Shown here one piece after another: positions 25,465 to 29,241 of a stretch of 64,000 nucleotides of DNA. The stretch's first letter is position 1, and each line of letters opens with the position of its first letter. The notes beneath the pieces were generated by a model. That model was not told the origin of the DNA. It saw only the letters and a program-made list of their open reading frames with translations, and did no database searches. Made by a program: the position numbers and the translations under genes. Source of the DNA: Pyxidicoccus trucidator (GTDB lineage Bacteria; Myxococcota; Myxococcia; Myxococcales; Myxococcaceae); NCBI RefSeq assembly GCF_010894435.1, contig NZ_JAAIXZ010000011.1:1-64000 (forward strand), in the 5' to 3' direction.

Positions 25465-25816
25465 GGTCAGCTCCTCTCCGGAGTGGTGTGGGGATCCGAT
25501 GGGAGTCCCTCGGCTCCGGTAGCTGCCAACTTACGTGGGTTTGCGGGGTGGCAATAGACATTCAGCGGGAAATGAGCTGACGCACCCTGTTGAGCGCGCC
25601 ATGTCATGACCTCCGTGAGTTTCAGTGTCGCGGCATTGGAGTGGATGGCTTGCTAGTGGAAAACCACTACCCGCCAATGTGTGTACTGATTCAGGGCGCG
25701 GGAAGCTCCTGCAGTAGACCGGGTCTCGTTCGGACTTGAGGCCAGCAGCTCAACTCTCGATTCGAATCCTTTGACACTGTAGACACTGTCTCGGAGGCGA
25801 GGCTGGGTGAGCACCG
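25465..25816. other. Intergenic region without a gene
   Basis: The region runs from the lipoprotein start to the 3' end of the kinase, both on the minus strand. It contains a 6-bp inverted repeat TAGTGG-aaaa-CCACTA near 25654-25669 and a short direct repeat GACACTGT near 25770-25790. No believable reading frame is seen. The promoter of the lipoprotein must lie at the left side but is not obvious. Confidence 0.45.
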
Positions 25817-27244
25817 CTATGGAGCTTCGTCGCCAGGGCGCTCCGTGGGCCCCGAAGTGGCGGGACGTGGAGGTGGGTAGGCGGGGCCGTAGCAAGCGCC
25901 TTTGTGCTCGTAATAGGGCTCGAGACAGTCCCTCAGGCTGATGTCCACCTTCACCCAACACCCGCCATTGATAGAAACATGGGCCCGGTGGGCACACCGC
26001 CCAGACGCATCGGGCCGTAGCTGCCATCGGAGCGGTTTGGGCGGTAGCTCCACGGCGATGACAGACAAGGCAGATGGAGCCCGGGTGAGAGGCACCGGCG
26101 CCGTCAGTGCGGCTTCGCCGACGGCGACGGCGCCGCCATCCTTCGCCTCTTCGGTGGCGGATGCCTGGGCCTGTTCGGTCTTCTCTTGAGGCTGCGCGCT
26201 CAGCATCCACGCGGCGCCAAGCGCCACGGCGGCTCCCAGGCTGGCGGCTGCCATCAGCCGGGACCACGGAGCAGGCCCTCTTTCCCGTGGAGGGACACTC
26301 CGTGCCTCCTCGACAGGGAGTTCCTTCCGGGTGAAGAGCGGCACATCCGACTCTGGCCCTGCGCTCCGCGCGGCCTGCTCCAGCGCCTCCGCCAGTTCGC
26401 CAGCACCGCCACGCGCTTCGGGGCGCACGCAGAGCATCCGTGACACCAGCCTGCTCAACTCCACGCAGCAGCGGGCATTGACGCCATGGGGAGGCACGGG
26501 GCCCGTCCCCTCCGGGCCCCAGAGGTGCGTCACCTCGTTCAGCAGCGCTGGAGTCGGCGGGTAGTCGTCCGTCACCAGCCGGTACGCGGTCATCCCCAGC
26601 GCGAAGACGTCATCGGCCGCTCCGGGCGCATAGGCCGTGGCCGTCGGCTGGAAGGGCAGCCGCACCGAGAGCCACGCCTCCGGTGAGCGGTAGGGCCGCG
26701 TCCCAGGAGGAAATGGCGGCGACGTGAGCCTCTCTGCGCCCACGTAGCTTCCGGAGCCGAAGTCCGTCAGGAAGACCTGGCCGTCCGCAGCCCGCACCAG
26801 CACGTTGTCCCCCTTCACGTCTCGGTGCACGCCCCCCGCGGCATGCGTGGCCTCCAGCGCCCGCGCGAGGCTGGCCAGAACACGGAGCACCTGGCGCGAG
26901 GTGGGGCACTGCACCTGCGCCCAGTCATAGAGGGACGCGCCTTCGACCCACTCCATCGCAATGTAGGGGTAGGCAAGGCCCCCAGGCTGCTGCCAGAGCC
27001 CATGGTCCACCAGGCGCGGGACGCTCGGGTGACGCAGGCGCGAGAGCAGCTCCACCTCTCGCGCGAAGCGTCCATCTCCGGGGTGCAGGGCCACCTTGAG
27101 CGCCACGGGACCGCGCATGTCCTCCACACCGAGAGCCCGGTAGACGGCGCCGTACGTGCCCCAGCCGCGCCGCTCCAGGACTCGCCAGGGCCCCACCCGA
27201 GTCCCCGGAGGCAGGTGTGCTGGATACAGTGGGCCGGAGTCCAT
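25817..27244 (-). CDS. Hanks-type serine/threonine protein kinase, membrane-bound
   Basis: A 475-residue kinase. The N-lobe has a glycine loop GWGTYGAVY and the ATP-binding Lys in VALKVAL. The catalytic loop is HRDVKGDN with Asp142, the metal-binding motif DFG starts at Asp161, and GTRPYRSPEAW is the activation/P+1 region. A single membrane helix near residue 340 (LMAAASLGAAVALGAAWML) leads to a short C-terminal domain with four cysteines. All key catalytic residues are present. The start is ATG 27244. It is divergent from the ClpP-like gene across 160 bases, so the two may share control. Targets are unknown. Confidence 0.92.
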   Translation of the reverse strand: MDSGPLYPAHLPPGTRVGPWRVLERRGWGTYGAVYRALGVEDMRGPVALKVALHPGDGRFAREVELLSRLRHPSVPRLVDHGLWQQPGGLAYPYIAMEWVEGASLYDWAQVQCPTSRQVLRVLASLARALEATHAAGGVHRDVKGDNVLVRAADGQVFLTDFGSGSYVGAERLTSPPFPPGTRPYRSPEAWLSVRLPFQPTATAYAPGAADDVFALGMTAYRLVTDDYPPTPALLNEVTHLWGPEGTGPVPPHGVNARCCVELSRLVSRMLCVRPEARGGAGELAEALEQAARSAGPESDVPLFTRKELPVEEARSVPPRERGPAPWSRLMAAASLGAAVALGAAWMLSAQPQEKTEQAQASATEEAKDGGAVAVGEAALTAPVPLTRAPSALSVIAVELPPKPLRWQLRPDASGRCAHRAHVSINGGCWVKVDISLRDCLEPYYEHKGACYGPAYPPPRPATSGPTERPGDEAP

Positions 27245-27404
27245 GACGTGCCCCACGAGGCGGGAGGAGGTTCGCTGCAAGCGCTGCGAGCCTACTCGCT
27301 GCATCCGCAACTGTCAGCGTGTCCTCTGGAGTCGGTTCCACTCCTTTGACACCGCCTCGGGGCCACCGGCGCCGAAGCCCGCAGGACTGCTATGACGCCG
27401 GGGC

Positions 27405-28040
27405 ATGGGATTGCTCGGTTGGTGGCGCCGTCTGTGGGGCGGCAGTACGGAAGGACCTCGGCGGCCGGAGCCCGTCCGGGCTCCGGAAGGCAGGCGCGGC
27501 AAGGACCTCGAGGAGCGGCTCCTGCGCGACCGCATCATCCTGCTCGGCACGCCCATCAACGACGAGGTCGCCAACCAGGTCGTCGCCATGCTGCTCTTCC
27601 TGCAGAGCGAAGACCCTCGCGCGGGCATCACCCTCTACCTCAACACCCCCGGCGGCTCGGTCACCGCGGCGCTGGCCATCCACGACACGATTGGGTACCT
27701 CCAGCTCCCGGTGACCACCGTGTGCATGCGCACCTGCTCGGGCATCGCCGCGCTGTTGCTGGCCTGTGGCACCCGGGGCCGGCGGTTCTCGCTGCCCGAG
27801 GGGAAGATGTCCCTGGTCCCCTTCTCCGCTGGAGCCTCTGGCGAAGAGGGCACCTCCCCCACCATCCGCCGGCAGGAGATTCAGCGGCTGCAGCTGCGCC
27901 TCACCGAGCTCCTGGCCGAGCACACCGGCCAGCCTCCCCAGCAGGTGTCGCGAGACCTGGAGTCCGGACGCGACTTCGACGCTCGCGCCGCCGTGGAGTA
28001 TGGACTCATCGACGAAGTCGTCAGCACGCCACCGAAGTAG
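27405..28040 (+). CDS. ClpP-like protein lacking the catalytic triad (ClpR-like)
   Basis: A 211-residue protein with the ClpP/crotonase fold: ITLYLNTPGGSVTAALAIHDT, GRRFSLPEGK and ARAAVEYGLIDEV align well with ClpP. By-eye alignment with E. coli ClpP puts Gly113 at the catalytic Ser (GQAAS becomes RTCSG), Val138 at the catalytic His (MIHQP becomes SLVPF) and a Gly at the Asp. It should therefore not cleave peptides. Such ClpR-like subunits can still form mixed rings with active ClpP. The porin-like gene starts 7 bases downstream, which suggests an operon. Confidence 0.85.
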   Translation: MGLLGWWRRLWGGSTEGPRRPEPVRAPEGRRGKDLEERLLRDRIILLGTPINDEVANQVVAMLLFLQSEDPRAGITLYLNTPGGSVTAALAIHDTIGYLQLPVTTVCMRTCSGIAALLLACGTRGRRFSLPEGKMSLVPFSAGASGEEGTSPTIRRQEIQRLQLRLTELLAEHTGQPPQQVSRDLESGRDFDARAAVEYGLIDEVVSTPPK

Positions 28041-28047
28041 GACACAC

Positions 28048-29241
28048 ATGAGCCGTCATTCAACGAGGCAATGGGGAGCAGGACTCGTTCTGCTGGGCTG
28101 TGGGCTCATGGGCATGGCGGCCCGGGCGGAGGAGCCCCAGGTCCGAGCGCGGGTCTCCCTCTTCACCTCCCAGCAAAGCCTGGACCCGACCTGGGACTTC
28201 ACCCCCTGGCTCAACCTGGGGGCCACGGTGCGCTCGAGCGGGGACGCGGACAGTGGCTGGCTGCTCGGAGCGAATCTCTCCGTCAACGCGGGGACGTCCG
28301 CGGACCGGACCCGCTGGGAAGGCTCCTCCCCCAGCGTGCTGGACAACGGCAGCTCCCTCTTCGTGCGCTTCCGGCCGGAGCGCTGGGCACCGGGTGAGGG
28401 CATTTCCCTCACGGTGTACCCGCTGGACAGCTCCCGGCTGCGCCTGGGCTGGGCCTATCCCGCCACCTGGGGCGGCAACTTCCACGGCCGCTGGGAGTCC
28501 ATTCAACGCGAGCCCTACTTCATGCTCGAGCGGAAGCGGACCCACGGGCTTCAGCTCCAGGTCCAACAGGAACGCTGGCACGCCTTCGCGGCACTGAAGA
28601 CGCATGCCCTGACGAACCTGCTCTCCCCCATGGTGGGTGCCGGGGTTTCGCTCCCGGGGCCGAGGAGCGCCCAACGCCTCCACCCGGGTCGTACCAACCG
28701 TATACGCAGGGGGCGTCCGCGCGGCTCGTCCACGAACGGGGTGGGCCCATCGGGACGAACGTGGACTTCGGGCTGTATGGCACGTCGCCCGCGCTCTTCG
28801 AGGAGGTCTTCCAGCCCGAGCGCTACTCCGAGGGCCTCTCCCACTCCGTCTCGCTCGAGGCCACCCATACCCTCCTCCACGGCGTCGAGGACCTCGGAGT
28901 CACGGAGTCCGGCTTCCCGCTGATGCGCCCTCGGAGCATTCGCACCAACAGGGTGGCCCTGGATGCCCGCCTCCGCTGGAACCGGCTGCGGCTGCATGGG
29001 CTGGGGCTCGTGCGGAGCGCGGGAGCGGTGGTGCAGGAGGACGCGGACCTCTGGACGGAGTTCTTCCGCGGCACGCGGCGGCGCCCCGAGCTGGGGTTGA
29101 GCCTGGGGGCGGACTACCACCTGCCGTCCCACGGCCTGACTCCGGGGCTCGGGGTGCGCGTCCTGAGCCCCGCGGGGCTCTTCGAGAAACCCGACGCAGG
29201 ACGGCCTGGGCTTCAACCTGCTCGTCCAGGCGCGCTACTGA
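28048..29241 (+). pseudogene. Outer-membrane beta-barrel protein with two frameshifts
   Basis: The protein has a signal peptide (LVLLGCGLMGMAARAEE) and long alternating, aromatic-ended strands typical of outer-membrane barrels. The frame breaks near 28646-28649, where one base is missing, and continues in another frame (APGAEERPTPPPG, then LVHERGGPIGTNVDFGLYG). One extra base near 29190-29194 then shifts it again to the natural end GFNLLVQARY, with a terminal aromatic residue. With both repairs the protein has 397 residues. The two opposite single-base changes could be decay or sequencing error. No specific porin family is recognised. It follows the ClpP-like gene by 7 bases. Confidence 0.7.

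Follow-up and report, generated by a model that had tools for sequence, protein, structure and literature searches.

A ClpP-fold protein without the catalytic triad in Pyxidicoccus trucidator, a candidate ClpR-like pseudo-subunit

Background

Cyanobacteria and the organelles that descend from them are known to possess pseudo-subunits of the ClpR type. ClpR is described as a homologue of ClpP without the catalytic triad (PMC7966870), and in cyanobacteria it is reported to form mixed rings with ClpP3, in which three ClpP3 subunits are combined with four of ClpR (PMC6508832). Paralogues of ClpP that differ in structure are described from Chlamydia trachomatis, its ClpP1 and ClpP2 being reported to bind unfoldases differently and to have unlike handle lengths and N-terminal loops (PMC9823225). 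For Myxococcus xanthus, two ClpPs are described, both with a Ser-His-Asp triad and one encoded after tig, with ClpP2 reported to be inactive on a model peptide and to oligomerise poorly in vitro (PMC11423568). No triad-less ClpP of a myxobacterium was found among the titles and abstract openings listed from open-access papers.

The window analysed here, a stretch of 64,000 nucleotides of the genome of P. trucidator (contig NZ_JAAIXZ010000011.1, positions 1 to 64,000), was found to carry a gene, termed R, for a ClpP homologue without the triad, which places its product under the above definition of ClpR (Table 1). Like the ClpR of cyanobacteria, plastids and apicoplasts, R is a triad-less homologue that occurs beside ClpPs in the same cell. 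Unlike photosynthetic ClpR, it carries a Trp-Trp tail and was found in a myxobacterial lineage, the tree of R having been built without photosynthetic ClpR. The genome of the window resembles that of M. xanthus in having two ClpPs, one of them beside tig, with R differing from M. xanthus ClpP1 and ClpP2 in being a third paralogue that is without a triad. As with ClpP1 and ClpP2 of C. trachomatis, the paralogues differ in handle and N-terminal loop; both chlamydial proteins are, unlike R, described as keeping the catalytic triad (PMC9823225).

The R gene and its product

Comparison of the R product to the Pfam family CLP_protease (PF00574) gave a score of 165.9 bits (cut-off 20.2), establishing homology, and ClpP chains of the PDB were matched with E-values down to 2.5e-48 (HMMER). 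The strong similarity to ClpP claimed in a first-pass annotation of the window was thus borne out. With the NCBIfam ClpP equivalog model TIGR00493 the protein scored 166.9 bits, below the cut-off of 308.6. An AlphaFold2 model, built from 68 sequences, had a mean pLDDT of 84.7, the values falling below 50 over almost the whole of residues 1-27. The first match by E-value identified for this model with Foldseek was the ClpP subunit 3kti_A (TM by target 0.95), and a further fold search matched the ClpP subunit 4u0h_A with a Z of 29.5 and an rmsd of 1.6 over 178 aligned residues. No structure named ClpR was present among the matches listed (60 sequence rows, and 50 per fold search), which is no evidence of absence. 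A sigma-70-type scan, which says little here, found no promoter or terminator at R.

A search of the window's own assembly (12.67 Mb) with PF00574 returned four matches, these being two ClpPs (295.4 and 294.5 bits), R and one partial match (23 bits). Both of the other ClpPs keep Ser, His and Asp and are encoded elsewhere in the genome, with the gene of one adjoining that of trigger factor.

Table 1. Features of the R gene and of its two neighbours, in positions of the window
Feature	Position	Strand	Remarks
clpR-like gene R	27405..28040	+	211 aa, ClpP fold without catalytic triad; Pfam and PDB matches, AlphaFold2 model
N-terminal tail, residues 1-27 (MGLLGWWRRLWGG...)	27405..27485	+	Replaces ClpP axial loop; pLDDT mostly under 50
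Gly113 codon GGC, at ClpP Ser position	27741..27743	+	HMMER and MAFFT alignments
Val138 codon GTC, at ClpP His position	27816..27818	+	HMMER and MAFFT alignments
Handle segment, residues 139-174	27819..27926	+	Alignments A1 and A3
Ser187-Gly188 codons, at ClpP Arg (ring-ring) and Asp positions	27963..27968	+	Gly188 is GGA, 27966-27968
Ser/Thr kinase cassette	25817..27339	-	Pkinase; dispersed in genus; not regarded as belonging to the R system
Outer-membrane-type gene, frame-broken	28048..29186	+	Break at about 28630-28700; start 7 bp downstream of R stop; not regarded as belonging to the R system

Loss of the catalytic residues

The triad positions of ClpP were found to be occupied in R by Gly113 in place of Ser (GQAAS aligning with RTCSG), Val138 in place of His (MIHQP with SLVPF) and Gly188 in place of Asp (TDRD with LESG). 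Two alignments agree on this and are gap-free within the motifs, namely that of HMMER to the PDB chains and that of MAFFT with the genome's own two ClpPs, confirming by both methods the earlier claim that all three catalytic positions are changed. Alignment A4 consists of 68 rows thinned for redundancy, with the distant ClpP-like rows L128 and L129 left out; when seven R proteins, a diverged protein of genome G031 and a copy from Ktedonobacter racemifer (both described below) are subtracted, 59 ClpP rows are left. Ser and His are each present in 59/59 of these and Asp in 57/59 (Asn in the other two). These counts were taken from A4; pairwise alignments of the named-genome loci displace several triad letters by gaps. 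Because Ser, His and Asp are near-universal in the 59 rows, the triple loss in R is not regarded as chance variation. With all three catalytic residues gone, R is predicted to be unable to use the ClpP mechanism.

An intact triad formed by Ser112 and a nearby His, to which the first-pass annotation had looked as a possible refutation of its reading, does not refute it, since a conserved His is found in no column of the R alignment; Ser112 is itself His in one of seven orthologues. A shifted alignment with an intact triad was ruled out on the same absence of a conserved His among the seven R and on the gap-free motifs. One further replacement, absent from the first-pass annotation, is that of the Arg preceding the catalytic Asp by Ser187, this Arg being described as the ring-ring salt-bridge residue (PMC9823225).

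Distribution of R

A profile of three R sequences, run against 96 genomes of the window's family, identified seven members with scores of 395 to 231 bits, the next match being a ClpP at 221.7. With a seven-row profile, the lowest R scored 296.9 bits vs 229.9 for the next match. Counted over the best 16 to 32 candidates scored per genome, a miss being possible, R was found in 7/145 genomes of the order and 7/195 of the phylum, with all seven members belonging to the window's family, where they are spread over four genera. On the same count 3/27 genomes of the window's genus carry R, which would therefore seem to be dispensable in the genus. The members are those of the window (G000), G012 (locus L115), G021 (L116), G101 (L162), G078 (L163), G077 (L164) and G061 (L165). 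Pairwise identity among them ranges from 42 to 82%. The window protein is nearest to that of L165 (55%), and has an identity of 42-55% to most other R and of 52% to the ClpP of L035.

For phyla beyond the window's own, where a single query protein was used, the best 80 of 378 matches in named genomes were found to be 38-52% identical, with Ser present in the best match at all 80 loci. Carriage of R on plasmids was rejected, as the 152 plasmid records matching R were all partial (none above 80% of the query) and all below 60% in identity, with ClpP names among the matches listed (40 rows). Further ClpPs with Ser, His and Asp (motifs GQAASF and MMHQP) were observed in several large-genome relatives (L118, L119, L120, L121 and L122), and tandem ClpPs, both with the GQAAS and MIHQP motifs, in genome G118 (L168 6083-7251).

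Features lost and retained in the seven R proteins

The first-pass annotation had proposed a survey of the Gly/Val/Gly substitutions in orthologues. In this, Gly at the Ser position proved to be shared by 7/7, and the other two substitutions did not hold across the set: the His position is Val in two members and Thr in five, and the Asp position is Gly in two, Glu in three, Gln in one and Lys in one. The ring-ring Arg is lost in all seven and retained in the G031 protein. A C111-x-G113 motif is common to all seven, with C111 standing where ClpP has Ala, and C185 and C93 are present in 5/7, the window protein having Leu and His there. The window protein thus has the features by which the R subfamily is recognised, namely Gly at the Ser position, no catalytic His or Asp, no ring-ring Arg, C111-x-G113 and a place in the R clade.

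A4 has 64 columns with 90% conservation in ClpP, of which 28 are retained by 7/7 R, 37 by at least six and 11 by none. These 11, in the numbering of mature E. coli ClpP, are E14, S21, G73 and Y77 together with seven columns in or next to the active site (A95, A96, S97, H122, Q123, R170 and D171); L115 has no letters at E14, where the loss is therefore that of 6/6 R with letters. The columns lost in all seven are thus mostly of the active site or N-terminal, with core columns kept. The apical pocket, where the unfoldase loops dock, is mostly hydrophobic or aromatic in R, with Thr or Gln in single members and Arg at position 60 in five. Much of this pocket is lost in the G031 protein.

A point beyond the first-pass annotation is the absence from R of the ClpP axial-loop segment. 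A Trp-Trp tail with basic residues takes its place and is in frame in 6/7 R and in a different frame in L115. It opens with M(A/P)WWNPF or, for the proteins of the window and L165, has WW(R/H)RLW. There (L115 6570-6664, minus strand), the tail of the G012 copy is out of frame with the ClpP-like part, due to either a sequencing error or a lesion. The handle of the window R is one residue longer than those of the genome's own ClpPs and 5-8 columns longer than those of the six other R, with the modelled handle helix covering residues 152-174 (23 residues) in the window protein and 142-161 (20 residues) in that of L116.

Descent and relatives outside the seven

In the tree, a single branch separates the seven R proteins and that of G031 from the other rows with support of 100/100; the same branch had 98/85 when the columns around the triad were removed, with the Ktedonobacter copy left out. 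The seven were not separately resolved without the G031 protein (31/33 with triad columns out, and 12% of bootstrap trees for the full alignment), and with the triad columns out the nearest row by path to the window R was the ClpP of L006 (1.70), followed by L165 (1.78). By these trees, R is a small group of the window's family, set apart from other ClpPs. The G031 gene (L117 6192-6710) is ClpP-like and diverged, with Gly/Met/Gly at the triad positions. Its protein has a very long branch and an unsure placement, and its best sequence match, the R of G061 at 137.8 bits, is just above a ClpP at 133.1. The gene order at this locus is tig-clpP-clpX-R-oligopeptidase-lon, with the called TTG start of the R-like gene overlapping the clpX stop.

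K. racemifer possesses a tandem ClpP pair (L088 5318-5863 and 6001-6546), the first copy of which is like R in having Gly at the Ser position and no Asp (Arg in its place). This copy is an additional gene at one of the 80 named-genome loci, whose best match has the Ser. Unlike R, it keeps the His and branches among Chloroflexota ClpPs, and due to this placement it is treated as a separate case. The window R scored 123.5 bits with NCBIfam NF009204 (cut-off 263), which we take to be the model for cyanobacterial ClpR; since an ordinary ClpP reaches 201.4 bits, this score decides nothing on descent from ClpR. R is probably of independent origin from photosynthetic ClpR, as its narrow distribution suggests.

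Selection on R

Differences at first, second and third codon positions were 73/53/89 between the window R and L165 (p 0.011), 26/28/46 between L115 and L116 (p 0.026), 46/29/55 between L116 and L162 (p 0.018) and 25/18/31 between L163 and L164 (p 0.18). Four control genes beside L163 and L164 gave p from 1e-8 to 4e-4, a far larger excess at third positions; one control pair (a gene guessed to be of ABC1 type) was out of frame, with p 0.006, and was left out. Nei-Gojobori dN/dS among five R pairs was 0.44-0.67, with dS probably understated because third positions are GC-rich. The distribution of GC over codon positions is gene-like in all seven R. The frame was found to stay open in 9 to 64% of simulated neutral copies, for which reason an intact frame by itself counts for little in GC-rich DNA. 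Evidence for constraint on R is modest and below that for the neighbouring genes, and the best argument for function is the common, ordered pattern of losses and retentions.

Proposed role of R and alternative explanations

As judged from sequence and model, R is an inactive ClpP-fold protein that appears to keep most of the apical pocket along with the fold. This part of the first-pass interpretation stands, and the comparison with ClpR made there is fair in kind, with the triad lost, the fold kept and intact ClpPs present in the genome. The preferred reading, given a probability of roughly 0.5, is that of a ClpR-like pseudo-subunit, a triad-less ClpP paralogue with its core fold and most of its docking pocket kept that would join or cap the Clp core. 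We infer as most likely that R would assemble with ClpP1 or ClpP2 of its genome, either within heptamers of both proteins or through stacking of an inactive R ring on an active ClpP ring, and that the protease would be tuned as a result. The presence of R in the Clp core would leave fewer active sites through dilution or capping, and may alter unfoldase docking or pore gating, the last being proposed because the Trp-Trp tail replaces the ClpP axial loop. Were such assembly to hold, R would work like ClpR.

Counting for this reading are the loss of the triad in 7/7, the retained core columns and mostly retained pocket, the match of the model to ClpP subunits, the R branch, the G031 gene that overlaps clpX, the two intact ClpPs and the precedent of the cyanobacterial mixed rings. 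The G031 relative would be the nearest support for a regulatory or structural ring subunit, the role suggested in the first-pass annotation. The loss of the ring-ring Arg in 7/7 and the shorter handle of the six other R speak against the usual stacking of R on ClpP; with its full-length handle, the window R is a more plausible candidate for stacking on a ClpP ring than its short-handled orthologues. The lack of an adjacent Clp gene, the occurrence of R in 3/27 genomes of the genus, the slight third-position excess, an identity to most other R at the level of that to some ClpPs, a ClpP as nearest row by path with the triad columns out and the unsure place of the G031 protein count further against the pseudo-subunit. 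If true, it would mean a second, independent origin, here in a large-genome bacterial family, making dead subunits a repeatable way of tuning Clp proteolysis, and it would provide a simple system (one R and two ClpPs in one genome) for asking what dead subunits do.

As the evidence of selection is modest, a decaying ClpP paralogue with no role in this organism and a frame that is still open was kept as a candidate, and is considered possible, if rather unlikely. Decay is in keeping with the patchy occurrence of R (7/195 genomes, by the best 16 to 32 candidates each), the tail of L115 in another frame, the broken frame of the downstream outer-membrane gene, the weak third-position excess with its dN/dS values (dS being probably understated) and the ease with which neutral copies stay open; it does not sit well with seven sequences 42-82% alike having in common Gly at the Ser position, loss of His, Asp and Arg, and C111-x-G113, with codon-position GC that is gene-like in all of them, or with losses concentrated at the active site and N-terminus while core columns are kept. 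The loss of the ring-ring Arg in all seven and the shorter handles of six may instead indicate a free-standing, non-proteolytic ring or adaptor outside ClpP rings, which would bind an AAA+ unfoldase and be tethered by its basic Trp-Trp tail, with the membrane or a partner as possible anchors. Its docking pocket is mostly kept, the tail is in frame in 6/7, and for ClpP1 and ClpP2 of C. trachomatis unequal handles are reported to disfavour mixed tetradecamers (PMC9823225). Such an adaptor is nevertheless judged unlikely, given the full-length handle of the window copy, the low confidence of the modelled tail and the fact that no unfoldase gene was recognised beside the window R, with adjacency to clpX having been checked for the G031 relative only.

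The presence of C111 in 7/7 (Ala in ClpP), and of C185 and C93 in 5/7, would fit a hydrolase whose active site has been rebuilt, for example on a Cys near the old one. With no conserved His in the R set, and with Leu and His at C185 and C93 in the window protein, this was considered very improbable. A wider and doubtful proposal, for which the odds are regarded as poor, is that pseudo-ClpPs outside photosynthetic organisms might employ the ClpP ring for docking without proteolysis, with a Trp-Trp anchor in place of the axial loop, the ring-ring lock dismantled and the site refitted with Cys, so that the output of an unfoldase (ClpX or ClpC) would be captured undegraded at the membrane or by a partner.

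Genomic neighbourhood

There is no support for a functional partnership of R with either of its neighbours. The kinase and porin-like genes put forward as context in the first-pass annotation add little, the kinase being a dispersed cassette and the supposed porin being frame-broken. In the stretches read, only L163 and L164 (of one genus) have syntenic flanks; one more flanking pair was found to match, namely the dehydrogenase-like proteins of L163 and L165 (31% identity, E 5e-21), with no other flanking protein common to the R loci. The window copy of R adjoins no Clp gene. A conserved unit of kinase and R, or of R and porin, was ruled out by the lack of shared flanks, the dispersal of the kinase cassette and the broken outer-membrane gene.

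Two relatives of the outer-membrane-type gene, with open frames of 478 and 469 aa, align to its frame 1 as far as about 28653; their match in frame 3 begins at about 28635 or 28704 and runs to about 29186. Since these relatives switch from frame 1 to frame 3, the gene is considered to be frame-broken in this assembly. Across the family, its relatives have frames of at least 466 aa in every other row among the matches listed.

The kinase was found to match several PADLOC kinase models (best mad6, 121.9 bits). A role of R in anti-phage defence was rejected, R itself having no PADLOC match and only the kinase matching such models. Copies of the kinase occur at 88-92% identity in the window genome and two relatives. 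Homology of the cassette to the three inspected copies (L189 2229-3751, L190 1672-3212 and L191 1970-2989) ends 65 bp before the R start, at window position 27339, with varying left ends (25817, 25799 and, for the third copy, about 26322). The cassette is about 1.5 kb in two of the inspected copies, with a close match of 1.0 kb in the third, and on the right all copies end alike (...GTCGGTTCC). In the window, the cassette has an 11-bp direct repeat, TCCTTTGACAC, beyond each of its ends (25767-25777 and 27342-27352).
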